This document shows, in pieces, positions 19,278 to 29,682 of a DNA stretch of 64,000 bases. Every line of letters starts with the position of its first letter. Positions within the stretch are counted from its first letter, which is position 1. Below the pieces are notes generated by a model, which saw nothing but the letters and a program-made list of their open reading frames with translations, searched no databases and was not told where the DNA came from. The stretch lies in the NCBI RefSeq assembly GCF_900446255.1, contig NZ_UIGI01000001.1:4800763-4864762 (forward strand), in the 5' to 3' direction. The position numbers and the translations under genes are program-made. Source of the DNA: Buttiauxella agrestis. GTDB lineage: Bacteria; Pseudomonadota; Gammaproteobacteria; Enterobacterales; Enterobacteriaceae.

Positions 19278-20138
19278 ATGAACTACGACGTGAGCCAACT
19301 TATTTCTCATCTGCTCAATAGCCCCTCAGGCATTCAGCGTATCTGGCTTGCAGACAGCCAAACCGCCCCATCCGAACTTGCTTATCAGGTTGATTTTCCG
19401 CGAATCGAAGTCGTGTTAGATGGCGTTTTAATGGACGCCTGCGATGCGGGAATGCCGGCCAGACTTGAGCAGCATGACGTGCTCTACGTTCCAGCAAAAT
19501 GCTGGAACAACCCGCAATGGAATTCGCCCGTCACGACGTTAAGTATTCTATTTGGCAAACAGCAACTTGGATTCAGTATTCTGCGATGGGATGGAACGAC
19601 GTTTAAAACACTGGGTAAACAGAACGTTGCTCGCCGCGGGCCGCGAATCGGCTCGTTTTTGCTTCAGGCACTCAACGAACTGGTCATGCAACCACACGAT
19701 CAGCAAACAGCGCGGTTTATTGTCAGTAGTATTCTGAGTCATTGTACTGATTTGCTTGATAGCCAAATCCAGACCGCTTCACGTAGTCAGGCACTTTTCG
19801 AAGCCGTGCGGGAATACATTGATGAAAATTATGCAGAACCTTTAACCCGAGAGTCTGTTGCTCAGGTATTTCATATCTCACCGAACTACCTTTCACATCT
19901 TTTTCAGAAAACCGGTACGGTGGGCTTTAACGAATATCTAAACCACACCCGCCTGGAACATGCCAAAACATTACTGAAACGCTACGAATTGAAGGTGAAA
20001 GAGGTGGCTCATGCCTGCGGTTTTGTCGACAGCAACTATTTTTGCCGTTTATTCAGGAAGAATACCGAGCGATCGCCGTCGGAATATCGACGCCAGTATC
20101 ATAGTCAGTTGACGGAAAGAACAATTAATCGAGAATAA
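19278..20138 (+). CDS. yijO: AraC-family transcriptional regulator YijO
   Basis: 286-residue regulator with an N-terminal cupin-like sensing region (PRIEVVLDGVLMDACDAGM, VLYVPAKCWNNPQW) and a C-terminal AraC double helix-turn-helix from about residue 175. The first HTH is RESVAQVFHISPNYLSHLFQ. The second is VKEVAHACGFVDSNYFCRLFRKNTERSPSEYR. The effector and targets are not known to me. It faces the frw/pfl cluster and its last 14 bp overlap convergent frwD, which makes it a candidate regulator of that cluster; this is inference from position only. Confidence 0.88.
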   Translation: MNYDVSQLISHLLNSPSGIQRIWLADSQTAPSELAYQVDFPRIEVVLDGVLMDACDAGMPARLEQHDVLYVPAKCWNNPQWNSPVTTLSILFGKQQLGFSILRWDGTTFKTLGKQNVARRGPRIGSFLLQALNELVMQPHDQQTARFIVSSILSHCTDLLDSQIQTASRSQALFEAVREYIDENYAEPLTRESVAQVFHISPNYLSHLFQKTGTVGFNEYLNHTRLEHAKTLLKRYELKVKEVAHACGFVDSNYFCRLFRKNTERSPSEYRRQYHSQLTERTINRE

Positions 20139-20469
20139 TACGAGTGTCTTGCGGAGTGCCAAAAATTCGTCGCGCCGCCGACATCGCTTTTTGCGGCTCG
20201 CGCAGGAATGCATTAATACCGGATTGCACACAACGGCAATGTACGAAACGCGCCGCTCCCGCCAGCTCAATATCGGTGATCAGCAATACCACATCGGCTT
20301 GTTCGATATCCGTTTGCGACAACTCATTTTCAATTCCTAGCGCACCTTGAGTTTCGATTTTTACGGTCCACTTTTCTTGCTGACAGAGCTTTTCGAGCCG
20401 TTCCGCCGCCATATAGGTATGAGCGACACCACTAACACATGCTGTTACTGCGACTAAATGTCGAGTCAT
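20125..20469 (-). CDS. frwD: Fructose-type PTS enzyme IIB component FrwD
   Basis: 114-residue IIB protein of the fructose PTS family. The phosphocysteine sits in VTACVSGVAHTYMAAERL near the N terminus, very like FrwB. The cluster thus holds two separate IIB proteins for one IIC. The start is the ATG at 20469 with an AGGAGAGCGGAG ribosome-binding region. It is the last gene of the minus-strand frwC-frwB-pflD-pflC-frwD unit, 21 bp downstream of pflC. Its 3' end overlaps convergent yijO by 14 bp. Whether FrwD phosphorylates sugar or has a regulatory role cannot be told from sequence. Confidence 0.92.
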   Translation of the reverse strand: MTRHLVAVTACVSGVAHTYMAAERLEKLCQQEKWTVKIETQGALGIENELSQTDIEQADVVLLITDIELAGAARFVHCRCVQSGINAFLREPQKAMSAARRIFGTPQDTRIILD

Positions 20470-20490
20470 CTCCGCTCTCCTCTATGAAAA

Positions 20491-21366
20491 CTAACCGCCA
20501 ATGGTTACATGATACCCTGCACTTTCTGCCATCTGCCGCAATAGTGCGATTTCTGAAGCATCAGGTGGCACTATTCCCCTCATATCCCATGCTCGCCCCA
20601 ACAATTGATATTTTGCCTCACCGTATTGATGGAAAGGTAGCAGGTGGATTTCGGTAAGTTTTAAGGGGGCAAGGAATTGGAGTATTGCAGCCATATTACC
20701 TTGCTCGAGGGTATACCCCGGAATCAAAGGCACTCGGGGGATGACCCGAATACCCGACTCGACCAACAATTTAAGATTTGCCAGGACCCTGGGTTGATTG
20801 ATATTCAGCACGGATTTTGCTTTCTCGGTGTCCATGATTTTCAAATCGAACAGGACTTCGTCGCACTGCCGCGCCAGAGCAAGCACTTTTTCAGATGCAG
20901 CATCACCAGCGGTTTCAATAGCAGTATGGATTCCTAGCGATTTCAGACGCTTGAGAAAACGAGTCGCAACAGCCGCCTGCATCAATACCTCGCCGCCTGA
21001 AAGCGTAACGCCACCTTTTGATGACCGGAAGAAAACGTCATCTTTCAGCACCTCTTTTTCGAGTTCGGCCAGCGAATAATCACGACCAATGCTTTCCATT
21101 GCCCCTGAGGGGCATTCATCTACATCATTCTGACAAGTCGGACAGTGCAGGCATTTTGATAAACGCCGCACGGTTTCAATCTTCCCGGAGATTGACTCCG
21201 GGTTTGCGCACCACGGGCAGTAATGTGGGCAGCCTTTGAAAAAAACCACTGTCCTGATGCCATTGCCATCATTCAGGGAGTAGCGCTGGATATTGAAGAT
21301 ACGCGCTTTTGCCTCCCCGTCTTCGATCACCTCACAACTGATGCGCGGTACGGCGGATAATGTCAT
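20491..21366 (-). CDS. pflC: Glycyl-radical-enzyme activase PflC
   Basis: Radical-SAM enzyme that installs the glycyl radical on PflD under anaerobic conditions. The 291-residue protein carries the SAM cluster motif CPHYCPWC (in VVFFKGCPHYCPWCANPES) and a second cysteine-rich insert (CLHCPTCQNDVDECPSGA) for auxiliary Fe-S clusters. That insert is typical of activases of dehydratase/lyase-type glycyl radical enzymes rather than of PflA. The start is the ATG at 21366 (MTLSAVPRISC), inside pflD, giving a 35-bp overlap; the open frame extends 48 bp further but lacks family similarity. Coupled translation with its substrate PflD is likely. Confidence 0.93.
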   Translation of the reverse strand: MTLSAVPRISCEVIEDGEAKARIFNIQRYSLNDGNGIRTVVFFKGCPHYCPWCANPESISGKIETVRRLSKCLHCPTCQNDVDECPSGAMESIGRDYSLAELEKEVLKDDVFFRSSKGGVTLSGGEVLMQAAVATRFLKRLKSLGIHTAIETAGDAASEKVLALARQCDEVLFDLKIMDTEKAKSVLNINQPRVLANLKLLVESGIRVIPRVPLIPGYTLEQGNMAAILQFLAPLKLTEIHLLPFHQYGEAKYQLLGRAWDMRGIVPPDASEIALLRQMAESAGYHVTIGG

Positions 21367-23629
21367 CCTGAATCTCCTTCGACAGCTCCACAAAGAAAGC
21401 GCTGTACCCGGCAACTCGTACTACCAGCCCGGCATAATCTTGCGGCCGACTTTGCGCATCACGTAGCGTTTCGGCGTTCACCACGTTGAATTGAATATGC
21501 TGCAATTTAAGCTTAGAAAACGCTCCGAGGAAATCTGCCAGTTTATGAAGTCCAGCGTCCCCTTCCAGCGTGCTGGGGGTAAATTTCACGTTCAACAATG
21601 TGCCATTGGAGAGCAAATAGTTATCCAGCTTGCTGACAGATTTTAGTACCGCTGTCGGCCCCTGGCAGTCTTGCCCCAGCATGGGTGATAATCCCCCATC
21701 GGCAAGTTGTTCGCCCGCATATCGCCCGTCAGGTGTTGCACCGACCACCGCGCCAAGTGGCACATGCGCCGACACCGTGTATGAGCCTGGCGTGAAACTG
21801 CCGCCGCGTGGATTACGGTATTTTTCGACCTCTTTGCAGTAAAAGCGCAACAGATCGGCGCTGATGTTGTCCACTTCGTCGATATCATTGCCATATTTTT
21901 CAAAGCGATTAATTAAACGCGCACGTATTTGTTTCCCTTCCGGGCTTTCAAAGTTATCTTTCAGCACCGCCAGAAGTTCATCAAAACTTAACCGCTGCTG
22001 CTCAAACACCATACCGTTGAGCGCATGCAATGAGTCGCTAAGATTGGCGATGCCTATTCCCTGAACACCCGAGAAGTTATAGCGGGCGCCACCTTCAGTA
22101 ATGTCTTTACCGCTTTGCAGGCAATCATCGATAAACGATGAAAGTAACGGTACTGGTGCCCAATCACGATGGCCGATATCGCAGATGTTGCTGCCCTCAA
22201 CCATCAGTTTGATGTAGTGGCAAATTTTGTCGCGGATTTGCTGCAACAGGCTCTGATAGTCCAAAGCGCTGTTGCCTTCGTTTTCCAGCAAAACAATTTC
22301 CATCACCTTCAAGAGATTAAACATGGCGATGTCATGCAAGCCGTAAGTTCGCCCGGGAATGGATAGCTCTACGCATCCTACAACGGCGTAATCACGTGCA
22401 TCTTCCAGCGAAACGCCCCGGTTCAGGAATGCAGGCACAACGACTTCATCATTGAAGATTTGTGGAATCCCCGTTCCGAGGCGCACGGTTTCAGCTGTTT
22501 TCAGCAGGAAGGGGCGGTCAATCAGCTCATTTACCCGCACCCCAAGGTTCGGCTGCGGTAATTGGATACTCTGGTAGGCATCAAGACACAGGAAAGAAAG
22601 CACGTTCACAGCGCTACGCCCGTTTTCAGTCAATCCGCCCAGTAAAATGGTGTAGCCCGTTGGGAAACCAGCAAAATAACGAGCACTGCTGGTGGATCGC
22701 AGTAAAACGATGTCATTACATTTTACCCACAGCGACTCCAGCAGCTCGCGCAAAAATTCAGGGCTTTCCCCCTGATTCAACGAGGTCTGGTAAAACGGCA
22801 GCATGTATTGATCGAAGCGCCCCAACGACAGCGAACTAGCGTTCGATTCATACTGGAGAATAATGTTCATGTACCAGAACAGCTGACAAGCCTGCCAGAA
22901 GTCTTTCGGACGTGATTCGGCATTGTGGCGAGAAATGCTAGCCATTTTCAATAACTCACCCTGCCGCTCGACATCTTCGCATTCAGCCGCCAGTTTCTCG
23001 GCCAACTCAGCGTAACGCAGGATATGCCGCTGTGAGGCTTCCAGCAGGATTAATGCTGACTGATAGAAATGGTTATCGGGTGATTTACGGCAGTGCTCAC
23101 GCAATTCCTCCACCAGTTTACCCAAACCGTTTTGTAACAGGCGCGGGTAATCAATAATGATATGCCCCTGCCCTTTATCAGTTTGGTTGACGCTAAAAAT
23201 TTGCGTTTTTACCGCCTCTTTGACGTCATCCGTCATTTGGCTATTGATGAAATCTTTCATCGAACGCTTTTCCCAATAAGGGTAAAGCTGTTCCCGGTAT
23301 AACGCTTTATCCTGCTCGCTAATTTCAAACCTGTCTTGCGGGCGAGTCGGGAATTGATCCAATTCTTTGAGCAACCAATAAGGGTCCATCTCCGGCGACA
23401 TAATCCCGGCGCGCGGTTTTACGGTTCGATTACCCGCAATCAACTCATCCTCTCGAATCGCTATTTGCACGTTATCCAGAATGTACGCTGTTGCTTTAGC
23501 CCGGCGTAACAGCACATGTTCACCTTCCGTTGTGCGGTGGCTGACGGTGTAAAGCACCGCGCGCTCCAGAGAAATTTCTCGCGGTTGGGCAAACAATGCT
23601 GATTTCAAACGTTCGATACGATGAGTCAT
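21332..23629 (-). CDS. pflD: Glycyl radical enzyme PflD (anhydrohexitol-phosphate lyase candidate)
   Basis: 765 residues, the same length as E. coli PflD. The C-terminal glycyl-radical loop RVAGYSAFF places the radical at Gly741, and the active-site cysteine is Cys419 in VVGCVELSIPGR. The GCVE motif is that of C-O/C-N lyases and dehydratases. True pyruvate formate-lyase has two adjacent cysteines, which are absent here, so the old gene name is misleading. I recall a recent E. coli report that PflD opens the ring of 1,5-anhydromannitol-6-phosphate to give 1-deoxyfructose-6-phosphate. The flanking PTS, FsaB and GldA genes fit that pathway exactly. The enzyme is oxygen-sensitive and needs PflC. 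Confidence 0.93.
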   Translation of the reverse strand: MTHRIERLKSALFAQPREISLERAVLYTVSHRTTEGEHVLLRRAKATAYILDNVQIAIREDELIAGNRTVKPRAGIMSPEMDPYWLLKELDQFPTRPQDRFEISEQDKALYREQLYPYWEKRSMKDFINSQMTDDVKEAVKTQIFSVNQTDKGQGHIIIDYPRLLQNGLGKLVEELREHCRKSPDNHFYQSALILLEASQRHILRYAELAEKLAAECEDVERQGELLKMASISRHNAESRPKDFWQACQLFWYMNIILQYESNASSLSLGRFDQYMLPFYQTSLNQGESPEFLRELLESLWVKCNDIVLLRSTSSARYFAGFPTGYTILLGGLTENGRSAVNVLSFLCLDAYQSIQLPQPNLGVRVNELIDRPFLLKTAETVRLGTGIPQIFNDEVVVPAFLNRGVSLEDARDYAVVGCVELSIPGRTYGLHDIAMFNLLKVMEIVLLENEGNSALDYQSLLQQIRDKICHYIKLMVEGSNICDIGHRDWAPVPLLSSFIDDCLQSGKDITEGGARYNFSGVQGIGIANLSDSLHALNGMVFEQQRLSFDELLAVLKDNFESPEGKQIRARLINRFEKYGNDIDEVDNISADLLRFYCKEVEKYRNPRGGSFTPGSYTVSAHVPLGAVVGATPDGRYAGEQLADGGLSPMLGQDCQGPTAVLKSVSKLDNYLLSNGTLLNVKFTPSTLEGDAGLHKLADFLGAFSKLKLQHIQFNVVNAETLRDAQSRPQDYAGLVVRVAGYSAFFVELSKEIQDDIIRRTAHQL

Positions 23630-23658
23630 GATGTGCTCCTTACTGGTCAGTCAAAGGC

Positions 23659-23979
23659 TCAGGCGGTTTGTGCCAGATGGGCTTCAATCTTGCTCATGAT
23701 GGCGTCGGCACGTTTCACTGCATCACTGATATTGACGCGCACAATCGTTTTACCGGAAAAGCGCTCTTCCATTTTGATGCCGATATCCTTGGTCAGAATC
23801 ACCATATCCGCACTGGCGATATCCTCAGCGGTGAGTTCATTTTCAAGACCGATTGAGCCTTGAGTTTCCACTTTCACTTCCCAACCTTTTGCCTTGGCGG
23901 CACCTTCAAGTGCTTCAGCAGCCATGTAAGTATGAGCAACACCTGATGGGCAAGCAGTAACAGCAATAATCTTCGTCAT
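23659..23979 (-). CDS. frwB: Fructose-type PTS enzyme IIB component FrwB
   Basis: 106-residue IIB domain protein with phosphocysteine motif VTACPSGVAHTYMAAEAL at the N terminus. It accepts phosphate from the IIA domain of FrwA and passes it to substrate bound by FrwC. It lies 20 bp after frwC and has an AAGGA ribosome-binding site. It is a close paralogue of FrwD at the other end of the operon. Confidence 0.94.
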   Translation of the reverse strand: MTKIIAVTACPSGVAHTYMAAEALEGAAKAKGWEVKVETQGSIGLENELTAEDIASADMVILTKDIGIKMEERFSGKTIVRVNISDAVKRADAIMSKIEAHLAQTA

Positions 23980-23999
23980 GGTTAATTCCTTTTTATCAA

Positions 24000-25082
24000 T
24001 CAGTTAATTTCGAAATCCAGGTCCAGATCGTCTTCAGCCTTCGCGGACGTATCAGTCTGCTTTTTACGGGCATAAGTTTTCAAAAGATTCACGCAGACTG
24101 CGGTGACGATGGCCCCCACCAACAACGCAAGAACAAAACCAAACTTACCTTCAACAACCGGCAGCACAATTAATCCGCCCCAGCCTGCATAACATTGCGC
24201 TCCCATGAGTGCGGCAGTGGTTGCCCCACATGCAGACCCGAGCATAATGGAAGGGATAACACGTAATGGATCGGCAGCCGCAAACGGAATCGCTCCTTCA
24301 GTCACACCCACACACCCCATGACCAAAGCCGCCTTGCCTGCCTCACGCTCTTCACTACTAAAGTTCTTGCGGTTCATCAGCGTTGCGAGGCCTAGCCCTA
24401 ATGGCGGAACAGCGATTCCCACAGCAGCAATAGCCACCACGCTATACACGCCTTGTGCGACGCAAATCAGCATAAAGGCGTAAGCCACTTTGTTAACCGG
24501 ACCACCCATATCAAAGGCCAGCATCAGCCCCATGATCACCGCCAGAACCACAATGCTGCCTTGCTGCATTCCTTGCAGCCAATGAGTCAGATTACCGGTC
24601 AGCGCACCGACAGGTTCTCCTAAACCCCACATCATGATGCCCGCAGTAATAAAGGTGCCGACAATAGGAATGACAAAAATGGGCATCACCGAGCGCAGTA
24701 TTTTTGGCACCGGGATTTTCTTGATATAGAAGACAACAATGCCACCGATGATCCCGGCGATGATTGCGCCAAAGAACCCGGCCCCAAAACTGTTCCCCAC
24801 CCAGGCACCTATTGCACAAGGGGCGAGCGCAGAACGCTCTGCAATTGAATAGCCGATGTAGGCCGCGAGGAACGGAACCATTAGCGTTAAACCTGCAACG
24901 CCTATATCAAACAGTTTTTTCAGATTGGGGTCGCTCAGAGCATCCGGTACAGCACCTTTGCCATACAGCATGACGGAAACAGCCAGCAAAATGCCGCCTG
25001 CCACCACGAAGGGAATCATATGCGACACACCGGTCATTAAATGCTGTCGCGTGTTTTTGAGGATCTGGACCAACTCTTTCAT
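24000..25082 (-). CDS. frwC: Fructose-type PTS enzyme IIC permease FrwC
   Basis: Integral inner-membrane permease of 360 residues with about nine to ten transmembrane segments (for example MIPFVVAGGILLAVSVML, AIIAGIIGGIVVFYI and FVLALLVGAIVTAVCVNLL). It has the fructose-family features GxxxxAxxxIGxSIAERSALAP, AFDMGGPVNKVAYAF and GVTEGAIPFAAADPLRVIP. It transports and, with IIB, phosphorylates the incoming hexose or anhydrohexitol. First gene of its operon, divergent from frwA across a 308-bp control region that contains a CRP-like site. Confidence 0.94.
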   Translation of the reverse strand: MKELVQILKNTRQHLMTGVSHMIPFVVAGGILLAVSVMLYGKGAVPDALSDPNLKKLFDIGVAGLTLMVPFLAAYIGYSIAERSALAPCAIGAWVGNSFGAGFFGAIIAGIIGGIVVFYIKKIPVPKILRSVMPIFVIPIVGTFITAGIMMWGLGEPVGALTGNLTHWLQGMQQGSIVVLAVIMGLMLAFDMGGPVNKVAYAFMLICVAQGVYSVVAIAAVGIAVPPLGLGLATLMNRKNFSSEEREAGKAALVMGCVGVTEGAIPFAAADPLRVIPSIMLGSACGATTAALMGAQCYAGWGGLIVLPVVEGKFGFVLALLVGAIVTAVCVNLLKTYARKKQTDTSAKAEDDLDLDFEIN

Positions 25083-25260
25083 AAAGCACTCCCGGCCTTA
25101 GCGGCATATGTCCAAAATATTGGGGACACAATAGGCAATCTGGGCAGTGACAGACAGTGGATAAAAACGTCATTTACTGGATTTTTGTAATACGAAAATA
25201 GAAATGCGATCCGCCTCAAAACTTAACATTACGGGTTTCATTACTTGCTTAATCAGGTTT

Positions 25261-25276
25261 TGTGAGGCATCTCGCA
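25261..25276. promoter_or_regulatory. CRP-like site in the frwC-frwA divergent region
   Basis: TGTGA-GGCATC-TCGCA matches the CRP consensus TGTGA-N6-TCACA at nine of ten positions. It lies about 180 bp from frwC and 115 bp from frwA in the 308-bp gap, so catabolite control of both arms is plausible. The rest of the gap is A/T-rich, and no other convincing site was identified. Confidence 0.6.
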
Positions 25277-25390
25277 AATACTCGCACACAATACATTTAT
25301 CCAGTTTTTGACAGTTTTGTCTCATGGCGACTCACGGCAAAGGCCACTTATTCTGTAGCCATTGTTTTGAGTTGGTTCAGGAGAACTTCT

Positions 25391-27892
25391 ATGGCACTGG
25401 TTATTCATTTCCGCTGTGATTTACCAAACGGAGTACATGCTCGCCCCGCCAGTCTTGTTGAAACACTATGCAATCAGTTTTCCTCAACGATTGAATGGCA
25501 TAACTTGCGCACCGATCGTCATGGTGATGCAAAAAGTGCATTGTCACTTATCGGTACAGGGACATTAAAAGGGGACGACTGCCAAATTCGGGTTGCTGGT
25601 AACGATGAAGATCATGCTTTCGCCATGCTTTCCACCTTCATACAAGATGAGTTTCCTCACTGTGACGCCCCACTACCGGAAGTACAAAACAGCGAAATTG
25701 CCCCTGTTCCAGAATCTCTCTCACGCCTGAATCCCTCCTTCTTCCGTGCAAATCCGGTGTGTGCCGGAAGTGCCAGCGGAATACTCATTCCGCTCGCTTC
25801 ACTCGATTTGAACAAACTAGGGGATTTGCCTGCGGCACGAAGCATTGACGTGGAACAAGCGGCACTTAAGAGCGGGCTTGAGCAACTACTAAGAGCTATT
25901 AATCTCCGTCAACTCGCCAGCGACGGTACGGCTAGCGCTATTCTTGAAGCACATCGATCCCTTGCGAGTGACATTTCATTACGCACGCAGCTTCTGGAAC
26001 AGATACATGCAGGTGCAAGTTGCGCGGCAGCAATAGTGAAAACAGCAGCATACTTCTGCGCTCAGTTTTCTCAGTCAGAAAGTGTGTACCTGCAAGAGCG
26101 TGTACTTGATGTCCGGGATGTCTGCTTCCAGCTGTTACAGCATATCTATGGTGAAACGCGCTTCCCAACGCCCGGCAAATTACAGCAGGAAGCCATCTGT
26201 GTAGCAGATGAAATTACACCCAGTCAGTTTCTGGAATTGGATAAGACCTTACTCAAAGGGCTTGTGCTGCGCAGCGGCGGAACGACCTCCCACACGGTAA
26301 TTCTGGCTCGCTCATTTAATATCCCAACACTTGTGGGAATGGATACAGATGCACTGCGCCCGTGGTTGCAACAAACGGTACAAATCGACGGCGATCTTGG
26401 CCTCATCGTCGTCAATCTTACCGATTCGGTAAAACGCTATTACCAACAAGAAGCCAGGGTGCAGCAAGTTCTGCGCAATCAGCAAAAAGAATGGCTCAAC
26501 CAGTTGGGGCGCACCGCGGATGGTCTTCGTCTGGAAGTGGCCGCCAACATTGCTCATTGTGTTGAATCGGCTCCGGCGTTTAATAACGGTGCAGAAGCTG
26601 TTGGTCTGTTCCGCACTGAAATGCTGTATATGGACCGCGTGCATGCTCCTTCAGAAGATGAACTTTACAATATCTACTGCCAGGCGCTGGAAGGGGCAAA
26701 TGGGCGCAGCATTATTGTACGCACAATAGATATCGGCGGTGATAAGCCAGTGGAGTATTTGAATATTCCCGCGGAGAACAACCCGTTCCTTGGCTACCGT
26801 GCCGTGCGCATTTATCAAGAATACCTGTCGCTTTTCCATAGCCAGTTACGCTCCATTTTGCGCGCATCGGCACACGGATCATTAAAAATCATGATCCCCA
26901 TGATCTCCTCAATGGAAGAGATCTTGTGGGTAAAAGATCAACTCGCGGAAGTAAAACAGTCGCTACGCAGTGAACACATCCCATTTGATGAAAAAATCCC
27001 GCTCGGCATCATGCTTGAAGTGCCTTCGGTGATGTTCATCATCGACCAGTGCTGTGAAGAGATTGATTTCTTTAGCATTGGCAGCAATGACCTGACGCAA
27101 TATCTACTGGCGGTTGACCGTGACAATGCAAAAGTCACGCGTCATTACAACAGCCTGAATCCAGCATTCTTGCGCGCACTGGATTACGCAGTACAGGCGG
27201 TTCATCGCCAGGGGAAATGGATTGGGCTTTGTGGTGAGCTGGGTGCGAAAGGCTCAGTTTTACCGTTGCTGGTGGGCTTAGGGCTGGATGAAATCAGCAT
27301 GAGCGCCCCTTCAATTCCGGCCACGAAAGCACGCCTGGCACAGCTTGACAGCAAAGCCTGCCGCCAGTTGCTTAACCAGGCGATGGCCTGCCGTACCTCC
27401 CTTGAGGTCGAACATCTGCTAGCCCAGTTCCGCATGACTCAGCAAGATGCCCCCCTGATCACCCCGCAATGCATCTCGCTGACTAACGACTGGCGCAGCA
27501 AAGAAGAGGTGATTAAAGGCATGACCGACAACCTGCTGATTGCCGGGCGCTGCCGCTATCCACGCAAACTAGAAGCAGACCTGTGGGCGCGGGAAGCCGT
27601 GTTCTCAACGGGCTTAGGTTTTAGCTTCGCGATACCACACAGCAAATCTGAACATATCGAACAATCAACAATTAGCGTGGCACGGCTTCCGGCCCCAGTG
27701 AAATGGGGTGATGACGAAGCCCAGTTCATCATTATGCTGACGCTCAATAAACACGCCGCAGGCGATCAGCATATGCGTATTTTCTCCCGCCTGGCACGCC
27801 GCATCATGCATGAAGAGTTTCGTCATGCACTGGTTCACGCCGCTACGCAAGAGGCTATCGCCAGCCTGCTACAACACGAATTAGAACTCTAA
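25391..27892 (+). CDS. frwA: PTS multiphosphoryl transfer protein (HPr-EI-EIIA fusion)
   Basis: 833-residue fusion (also ptsA) that carries phosphate from PEP to FrwB without help from general PtsHI. Domain order: HPr-like (1-90, phospho-His16 in [10 protein letters not shown]), Enzyme I (about 115-670, phospho-His301 in [19 protein letters not shown] and PEP-binding [14 protein letters not shown]), then fructose-type IIA (about 690-833, His750 in [10 protein letters not shown]). The ATG at 25391 has an AGGAG ribosome-binding site and matches the E. coli start; the frame is open 129 bp further upstream. First gene of frwA-fsaB-gldA. Confidence 0.95.
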
Positions 27893-27903
27893 GAGGACGA
27901 ACT

Positions 27904-28566
27904 ATGGAACTGTATCTGGATACCGCAAACGTAGCAGAAGTCGAACGTCTGGCACGAGTCTTCCCGATAGCGGGTGTCACCACGAACCCGAGCATTATTG
28001 CCGCCAGTAAAGAACCCATCTGGGATGTCCTGCCACGACTACAAAAGGCCATTGGTGCAGGCGGCATTCTGTTTGCCCAGACCATGAGCCGTGATGCTCA
28101 GGGCATGGTGAACGAAGCCAAACGTCTGCGCTCTGCTGTTCCGGGTATCGTGGTGAAAATCCCTGTCACTTCAGAGGGGCTAGCTGCAATTAAGCTATTG
28201 AAAAAGGAAGGTATTACCACGCTGGGAACGGCCGTGTACAGTGCGTCGCAAGGTCTGCTGGCGGCACTGGCGGGAGCGAAATACGTCGCGCCGTATGTTA
28301 ACCGCGTTGATGCGCAGGGAGGCGATGGCATTCGCATGGTTCAGGAATTACAAACCCTACTGAATCTTCACGCCCCCGAAAGCAAAGTGCTGGCAGCCAG
28401 TTTCAAAACGCCACGCCAGGCGCTGGATTGCTTACTGGCAGGCTGCGAAGCAATCACCCTTCCGTTAGATGTAGCGCAACAAATGCTCAATACCCCTGCG
28501 GTAGAGTCAGCTATAGCTCAGTTTGAGCAAGACTGGGCTAACGCATTTGGTCATATCAACTTGTGA
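27904..28566 (+). CDS. fsaB: Fructose-6-phosphate aldolase (transaldolase-like)
   Basis: Class I aldolase of the small transaldolase family, 220 residues, equal to E. coli FsaB. The Schiff-base lysine is Lys85 in [11 protein letters not shown], and the N terminus [16 protein letters not shown] carries the conserved Asp. It reversibly splits fructose-6-phosphate-type ketoses into glyceraldehyde-3-phosphate and a hydroxyketone (dihydroxyacetone or hydroxyacetone). In this cluster the likely substrate is 1-deoxyfructose-6-phosphate from PflD, giving hydroxyacetone for GldA. It lies 11 bp after frwA and 12 bp before gldA. Confidence 0.95.
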
Positions 28567-28578
28567 GGAAAATAGAGT

Positions 28579-29682
28579 ATGGATCGCATTATTCAATCAC
28601 CAGGTAAATACATCCAGGGCGCTAATGTCATCACGCGTATTGGAGAATATCTCAAACCGCTGGCTGAACGTTGGCTGGTCGTTGGAGACAAATTTGTCTT
28701 AGGATTTGCCGAATCTACGCTGGAAAAAAGCTTTAAAGATGCCGGGTTGATACTGGAAATAGCCCCATTTGGCGGCGAATGTTCGCAAAATGAAATCGAC
28801 CGTTTGCGTGGCGTTGCGCAAAAAGCACAGTGTGGCGCGGTACTCGGGATCGGGGGTGGTAAGACTCTCGACACCGCCAAAGCTTTGGCTCACTTTATGG
28901 GCGTGCCGGTTGCCATTGCACCGACCATTGCCTCGACCGATGCACCTTGCAGCGCACTTTCCGTTATCTATACCGATACCGGTGAGTTTGACCGTTATCT
29001 GATGCTACCAAACAACCCTAATATGGTGATTGTTGATACCCAAATCGTGGCGAATGCACCCGCGCGAATGCTGGCAGCCGGGATTGGTGATGCAATGGCA
29101 ACCTGGTTTGAAGCGCGAGCCTGCTCACGCAGCGGCGCAACCACAATGGCCGGCGGCAAGTGCACTCAGGCAGCATTAGCGCTCGCTGAACTTTGCTATA
29201 ACACGCTGCTCGAAGAAGGTGAAAAAGCGATGCTTGCTGCCGAGTTGCACGTCGTGACCCCGGCTCTTGAGCGCGTAATAGAAGCCAATACTTACCTGAG
29301 CGGCGTCGGCTTTGAAAGTGGCGGCCTGGCAGCGGCTCACGCGGTGCATAACGGCCTGACAGCCATTCCAGATGCGCATCATTACTATCATGGTGAAAAA
29401 GTCGCTTTCGGAACGCTGACACAGCTAGTGCTTGAGAATGCCTCGGTGGAAGAGATAGAAACTGTCGCAGCACTCTGCCACTCCGTTGGTCTGCCAATAA
29501 CGCTGGCACAACTGGATATCAAGCAGGATGTTGAGGCAAAAATGCGCCGTGTTGCGCAGGCATCTTGTGCAGAAGGTGAAACCATTCATAACATGCCAGG
29601 CGGGGCGACTCCGGATCAGGTGTATGCCGCTCTACGGGTTGCTGACCAATATGGGCAACGTTTCCTGCAAGAATGGGAATAA
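28579..29682 (+). CDS. gldA: NAD-dependent glycerol / hydroxyacetone dehydrogenase
   Basis: Zinc-dependent group III alcohol dehydrogenase, 367 residues, equal to E. coli GldA. The nucleotide loop is [16 protein letters not shown] and zinc ligands lie in [29 protein letters not shown] and [10 protein letters not shown]. It interconverts glycerol and dihydroxyacetone and also reduces hydroxyacetone to 1,2-propanediol with NADH. Its place after fsaB favours the second role as the NADH-consuming end of the cluster's fermentation route. The ribosome-binding site GAGGAA overlaps the end of fsaB, so the genes are co-transcribed. Confidence 0.95.

Follow-up and report, generated by a model that had tools for sequence, protein, structure and literature searches.

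What does a gene cluster that joins a fructose-family phosphotransferase system (PTS) to a glycyl radical enzyme do in Buttiauxella agrestis, and what controls it? The cluster lies in a 64,000-nt stretch of contig NZ_UIGI01000001.1 (positions 4,800,763 to 4,864,762; the whole stretch is hereafter called the window, and coordinates refer to it unless another locus is named) and comprises two divergent operons, frwC-frwB-pflD-pflC-frwD and frwA-fsaB-gldA, with the gene yijO adjoining them. Our comparison with relatives makes it very probable that this locus is the Buttiauxella counterpart of the Escherichia coli anhydromannitol fermentation cluster, with Frw as the importer and YijO as the dedicated regulator of both operons. 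Since the pathway has already been published for E. coli, the Buttiauxella cluster is not new.

The window contains a complete and intact pathway gene set

The original prediction for this DNA placed a full frw-pflDC-fsaB-gldA set at 20125..29682, and our analysis bears this out: all eight reading frames (frwD, pflC, pflD, frwB, frwC, frwA, fsaB, and gldA) are intact at the coordinates listed below, and NCBIfam and Pfam identify each gene. The prediction's inventory left out yijO, which adjoins most of the separated pathway fragments in other genomes. The genes are as follows.

19278..20138, (+) strand: yijO, AraC-family regulator (Pfam HTH_18/HTH_AraC), predicted dedicated regulator of the pathway
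20125..20469, (−) strand: frwD, PTS fructose-like IIB (NCBIfam PRK10427, 193 bits; cut-off 153)
20491..21366, (−) strand: pflC, radical-SAM activase of PflD (NCBIfam PRK10076, 503 bits; cut-off 326), with the motif CPHYCPWC
21332..23629, (−) strand: pflD, glycyl radical enzyme (NCBIfam PRK09983, 1,610 bits; cut-off 1,109)
23659..23979, (−) strand: frwB, PTS fructose-like IIB (NCBIfam PRK10474, 205 bits; cut-off 135)
24000..25082, (−) strand: frwC, PTS IIC membrane subunit (NCBIfam PRK10478, 688 bits; cut-off 426)
25391..27892, (+) strand: frwA (ptsA), HPr-EI-IIA fusion (Pfam PTS-HPr, PEP-utilizers, and PTS_EIIA_2; above the TIGR01417 cut-off)
27904..28566, (+) strand: fsaB, fructose-6-phosphate aldolase family (NCBIfam TIGR00875, 332 bits; cut-off 246)
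28579..29682, (+) strand: gldA, glycerol/L-1,2-propanediol dehydrogenase (NCBIfam NF047954, 735 bits; cut-off 700)

The NCBIfam equivalog cut-offs were exceeded by frwD, pflC, pflD, frwB, frwC, and gldA. Comparison with annotated E. coli moved the starts of pflC and frwA to the ATG codons at 21366 (291 aa) and 25391 (833 aa), respectively, which leaves a frwC-frwA gap of 308 bp, similar to that in many relatives. PflD has Cys419 and Gly741 (in RVAGY), PflC has CPHYCPWC (CxxxCxxC), and the IIB, IIC, IIA, HPr, and EI domains of the Frw PTS are all present, with the HPr, EI, and IIA histidines of FrwA and the cysteines of FrwB and FrwD kept; these are the residues that we take to be the functional ones. 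The best Protein Data Bank match of PflD was 8yjo ("Probable dehydratase PflD"), presumably the E. coli protein, and its counterpart in B. agrestis ATCC 33320 is 98% identical to the window PflD. Orthology thus predicts that PflD is a 1,5-anhydromannitol-6-phosphate ring-opening lyase.

The window has the same genes as the E. coli locus (frwD-pflC-pflD-frwB-frwC/ptsA[frwA]-fsaB-gldA), in the same order, on the same strands, and at the same chromosomal site, following ppc, eptC, and yijO, whereas yijF and yijE, found between gldA and katG in E. coli, are both absent from it. DNA identity is ~77% over the aligning parts, and protein identity to E. coli is 92% for GldA, 90% for FsaB, 88% for FrwC, 85% for PflD, 79% for FrwA, and 71% for YijO. 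With the E. coli locus as query, the nine-gene stretch yijO-gldA was found at one place, covering at least 80%, in 5,343 of 5,426 E. coli genomes. That pflD seemed to be missing in about half of the E. coli genomes (matches in 2,735/5,426) was a megablast artefact at 77% identity. As a separate observation, the contrast within one operon is unusual: identity to the E. coli protein is 96% for FrwB (23659–23979) and just 66% for PflC.

The expected chemistry

According to the available part of a 2025 review (PMC12441222, on Ma et al., J Am Chem Soc 2024;146:26187), 1,5-anhydroglucitol and 1,5-anhydromannitol are phosphorylated by a PTS, and YbiW and PflD then cleave the 6-phosphates to 1-deoxyfructose-6-phosphate. 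The E. coli study to which the original prediction referred exists (Ma et al. 2024), and the PflD ring opening given there agrees with the review. In B. agrestis, the Frw PTS would take up 1,5-anhydromannitol and phosphorylate it at C6, an importer role suggested by co-occurrence, and PflC-activated PflD would open the ring by radical chemistry to give 1-deoxyfructose-6-phosphate. FsaB would cut this product into glyceraldehyde-3-phosphate and hydroxyacetone, and GldA would reduce the latter to 1,2-propanediol with regeneration of NAD+. These FsaB and GldA steps are reportedly part of the E. coli pathway of Ma and colleagues.

The older annotation reads the same genes differently, with PflD as a pyruvate formate-lyase, Frw as a fructose PTS, and FsaB-GldA acting on dihydroxyacetone. 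Database names still carry it, the available part of a 2019 paper (PMC6643234) links overexpression of gldA and fsaB to faster growth on dihydroxyacetone, and ten genomes described below keep yijO-fsaB-gldA without pflD and frwC. However, PflD scored 133 bits against TIGR01255, the model of true pyruvate formate-lyase, whose cut-off is 994; the E. coli work on PflD, as described in the accessible text of the review (PMC12441222), speaks against it as well, as does the strict co-occurrence of pflD and frwC. We consider such a fructose-like or dihydroxyacetone pathway very improbable.

YbiW and FsaA mark the anhydroglucitol branch, in which a related glycyl radical enzyme adjoins an FsaA-type aldolase. 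The presumed YbiW/FsaA pair is present in relatives (L002 and L111–L118), and the YbiW-type enzyme shares about 36%–40% identity with the window PflD when full-length matches are compared. In another relative (L151:10103-12526), one more glycyl radical enzyme is encoded near gldA, with a DeoR-type regulator in between; it falls below every NCBIfam equivalog cut-off. Matches of 35% also occur in L156, L159, L041, and L042.

pflD and frwC occur in the same genomes

Co-occurrence was counted in 198 genomes of the family (pflD at E ≤ 1e-200, frwC at E ≤ 1e-150), because order- and phylum-level sampling returned pflD in only 2/119 and 1/200 genomes at E ≤ 1e-200, too sparse to count. We found pflD and frwC in an identical set of 32 genomes (the two sets were compared by eye), in three of which the genes are unlinked (G469, G595, and G608); frwC carries a stop in G593 and is partial in G595. 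The chance of identical sets, 1.2e-37, assumes independent genomes, which these are not.

Gene layout was examined in the best 80 of 199 relatives confirmed in a scan of GTDB genomes, with genes counted at >50% coverage and at least 45% identity (at least 70% for pflD); some of these loci are cut by contig ends and several end early. The PTS and pflCD were present in 70 loci, these plus fsaB in 58, and all eight genes in 38, and a full yijO in 75; counted singly, fsaB was within reach in 58 and gldA in 38 of the 80, and in 20, fsaB was present and gldA out of reach. Since the same gene order recurs in many genera, the arrangement in the window is not due to chance.

Nine loci (five Kluyvera, two Pseudocitrobacter, and two Edwardsiella) have pflDC without a nearby frwC. 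They were considered as evidence against a single pathway, and whole-genome searches removed this for seven of them: in all seven Kluyvera and Pseudocitrobacter genomes, frwC-frwB-frwD lies at another site, where frwB is followed by frwD without pflDC in between (L089–L092 and L094–L096). In six of these seven, frwA-fsaB-gldA is on the same contig as frwC-frwB-frwD; in the seventh (the genome of L039), fsaB is split over contig ends. The pflC frame appears interrupted in one Pseudocitrobacter locus (L019, 12213-13139) and is intact in the other (L077).

The two Edwardsiella loci weigh against our reading: a genome search found no frwC orthologue there, the best match being 42% identical. The aldolases also vary. 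Among the matches in 20 genomes, FsaA-like proteins (66%–70%) were the sole aldolases in five, namely the two Edwardsiella, Yersinia similis, Ewingella, and one metagenome-assembled genome, the last three of which have frw and pflDC. The original prediction described the cluster as a self-contained unit, which holds for the window but not everywhere, given Edwardsiella without frwC, the FsaA-like aldolases, and the frequent location of fsaB or gldA at another site. It had further supposed that pflDC would not regularly occur without the PTS and the aldolase. The shared distribution of pflD and frwC and the retention of frwC in 7/7 genomes with separated pflDC agree with this, whereas both Edwardsiella loci and the five genomes with FsaA-like aldolases only do not; on the whole, the outcome favors the prediction.

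The Edwardsiella loci, which have pflDC and the promoter motif described below, also raise the question of whether another PTS (e.g., ManXYZ or PtsG) imports the substrate, with Frw serving a second one. Frw belongs to the fructose family, and the classical member of that family phosphorylates C1. Against this stand the identical distribution of pflD and frwC in the family and a motif common to the frw and pflD promoters even where these are unlinked. Another importer is, in our judgment, unlikely, and Frw is probably the route by which 1,5-anhydromannitol enters as the 6-phosphate.

A 30-bp motif precedes pathway operons and separated pathway genes

Alignment of the frwA-frwC gaps of the window and 20 relatives revealed that the best conserved blocks are two mirror copies of GAYAAANNNGCCANNNACTGGAYNNNTGTA, with a palindrome between them that resembles what we take to be the CRP consensus. 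CRP-type control may thus act between the two divergent operons. We scored the motif with a position weight matrix (PWM) built from 70 frwA-frwC gaps (81 distinct sites). The elements in the window are as follows.

25160..25189, (+) strand: predicted YijO operator of the frwC-frwB-pflD-pflC-frwD operon (PWM score 42.9; conserved across genera)
25261..25276, (+) strand: CRP-like palindrome TGTGAGGCATCTCGCA (from the alignment of frwA-frwC gaps)
25292..25321, (−) strand: predicted YijO operator of the frwA-fsaB-gldA operon (PWM score 44.4)

The third-best score in the window was 0.8, and ten column-shuffled matrices gave a mean of 0.1 hits scoring at least 14 per 1.75 Mb. Among the promoters used for training, 70/70 for frwA and 69/70 for frwC have the site. 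Outside the training set, it was found at 9/9 separated pflD promoters (scores 20.5 to 35.3), at 5/5 separated fsaB promoters of Klebsiella and Raoultella (score 42.1), and at 10/10 fsaB promoters of pflD-less genomes (14.9 to 43.3). All 24 of these sites have one orientation, pointing away from the gene, and end 61–94 bp before its start. In comparison, genes inside frw clusters lacked it (pflD, frwB, and pflC, each 0/70) or had it rarely (fsaB 2/58, gldA 1/38, and yijO 1/67, all weak), as did the neighboring control promoters of ppc (0/39) and katG (0/24). For frwD, the count was 1/70 (L087, where the gene has moved); the moved frwD genes of L083, L085, L086, and L088 have no site. The presence of the site at separated pflD and fsaB genes and its near absence from their operon counterparts indicate that both genes carry a site of their own when they stand alone.

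When 10 whole genomes were searched for the pattern with at most 2 mismatches, 26 hits were obtained, of which 23 are at frw, pflD, or fsaB promoters, one is at the promoter of a PhyH-family gene (see below), and two lie elsewhere; the reversed pattern gave two. B. agrestis and the single E. coli searched had just the two expected hits. For one of the out-of-pathway hits (L144), the 3 kb examined contain no pathway gene. The other (L138, a Hafnia; about 1390–1530) is some 0.1 kb upstream of a different IIB-IIC pair of the fructose PTS family, which is possibly a second importer.

YijO is the predicted regulator

YijO has an AraC-type helix-turn-helix domain above the Pfam cut-offs (PF12833 and PF00165). 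It has the C-terminal DNA-binding domain in common with AraC, RhaS, and MelR, and its predicted site likewise lies just upstream of the gene start; unlike in these proteins, its N-terminal part has no Pfam hit and it reaches no equivalog cut-off. A yijO orthologue is present in all 32 genomes with pflD and frwC and in ten that have neither; in total, matches at E ≤ 1e-45 occur in 45 of the 198 genomes, three of them with distant matches only (34%–39%). In pflD-less genomes, yijO directly precedes fsaB-gldA in 10/10, and where fsaB-gldA stands apart from the frw locus in Klebsiella and Raoultella, a yijO copy is beside it in 5/5. The assignment of YijO as the predicted dedicated regulator of the pathway is well supported by comparison with relatives, and the 30-bp motif is its presumed operator. 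YijO, most likely an activator, would bind one such site before each of the two divergent operons.

Several observations weigh against this assignment. Ten of the 198 genomes (L151–L160) keep yijO-fsaB-gldA and the motif without pflD or frwC, so that YijO may respond more broadly than to anhydromannitol alone; among the ten, G484 has a completeness of 49% and broken frames, and yijO carries a stop in G498. A full yijO is lacking in five of the 80 loci, three (L019, L077, and L084, the last with a partial match) among the nine separated pflDC loci and two (L080 and L078, a short contig) among the frw loci. In addition, the frwC promoter of L067, although in the training set, has no site within 160 bp, the yijO of Edwardsiella L082 is highly divergent (tree branch of 2.52), and a 2018 screen, in its accessible part, estimates that YijO binds the rmf promoter.

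The motif could instead belong to another regulator, with yijO a passive neighbor. That yijO itself mostly has no upstream site and that a full copy is lacking near three of the nine separated pflDC loci would fit this, but its position beside separated fsaB-gldA (5/5) and beside the motif in all ten pflD-less genomes, in differing chromosomal settings, argues for YijO as the regulator, and we regard a passive role as quite unlikely. The available text of a 2022 paper (PMC9308461) groups YijO with E. coli transcription factors that lack a known function. Our literature search found no link of YijO or a PhyH enzyme to the anhydromannitol pathway; most subscription journals were outside its coverage, and we hence make no claim of first discovery.

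A PhyH-type dioxygenase beside a second yijO in relatives

Outside the window, 15 of the 80 loci have a PhyH-family gene close to yijO (e.g., L051:13617-14384 and L035:13218-13985). In the family sample, it occurs in 6/198 genomes, all six with pflD and frwC and each time beside a second yijO; the chance of all six falling within the 32 is 1.2e-5, assuming independent genomes, which they are not. The PhyH-yijO pair is on a different contig from pflD in four of the six, and the surrounding 17–18 kb contain no further pathway gene. The 15 loci and six sampled genomes give 21 cases, in which species may repeat. In all 21, yijO is within 2.5 kb of the PhyH gene and these copies form one clade of the tree (98/88), which also argues against the motif belonging to a regulator other than YijO.

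The best motif match lies at 66–73 bp, in the same orientation, before each of the 21 PhyH genes, with weak scores (−5.5 to 18; median, 5.9). At a cut-off of −6, chosen after the scores had been viewed, 21/21 have a match, in comparison with 34/1,408 other open reading frame starts (PhyH starts not removed); at a score of at least 3, 17/21 have one, in comparison with 0.6% of random 330-bp windows. PhyH appears to be controlled by a regulator of the same type as the anhydromannitol genes.

Two proteins scanned for the PhyH domain (PF05721) scored 65 and 79 bits (cut-off 22), and H125-x-D127, H203, and R213-R215 are invariant in 11 aligned sequences; we take the HxD…H pattern and the arginine to be the putative iron and 2-oxoglutarate ligands. 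A structure prediction from 11 close sequences had a mean predicted local distance difference test score (pLDDT) of 35.5. At the phylum level, no PhyH was found in 349 genomes at E ≤ 1e-25, in a sample without any genome known to carry it; the same query found 6/198 in the family.

Gene company and chemistry lead us to propose, tentatively, that Klebsiella, Raoultella, Kluyvera, and some other relatives possess an oxygen-dependent twin route, although we hold it doubtful: PhyH, under the second YijO, might hydroxylate C1 of anhydromannitol (or its 6-phosphate) and so supply glycolysis with mannose (or mannose-6-phosphate) in conditions where PflD, being oxygen-sensitive, cannot work. According to the accessible part of the review (PMC12441222), C1 hydroxylation of anhydromannitol in rhizobia is the work of a P450-like enzyme yet to be identified, an enzyme kind that differs from the PhyH-type dioxygenase of the relatives, and 1,5-anhydroglucitol has no known aerobic enzyme.

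As the enzymes are known, the cluster is an ordinary one for a Buttiauxella, and the comparison contributes three testable points: the assignment of YijO, the site that marks separated pathway genes, and the candidate dioxygenase. If the last proposal is true, a single regulon would contain two enzymes for one substrate, a radical enzyme for anaerobic and an iron enzyme for aerobic conditions, and the PhyH route would bear on the bacterial use of anhydrohexitols in air.

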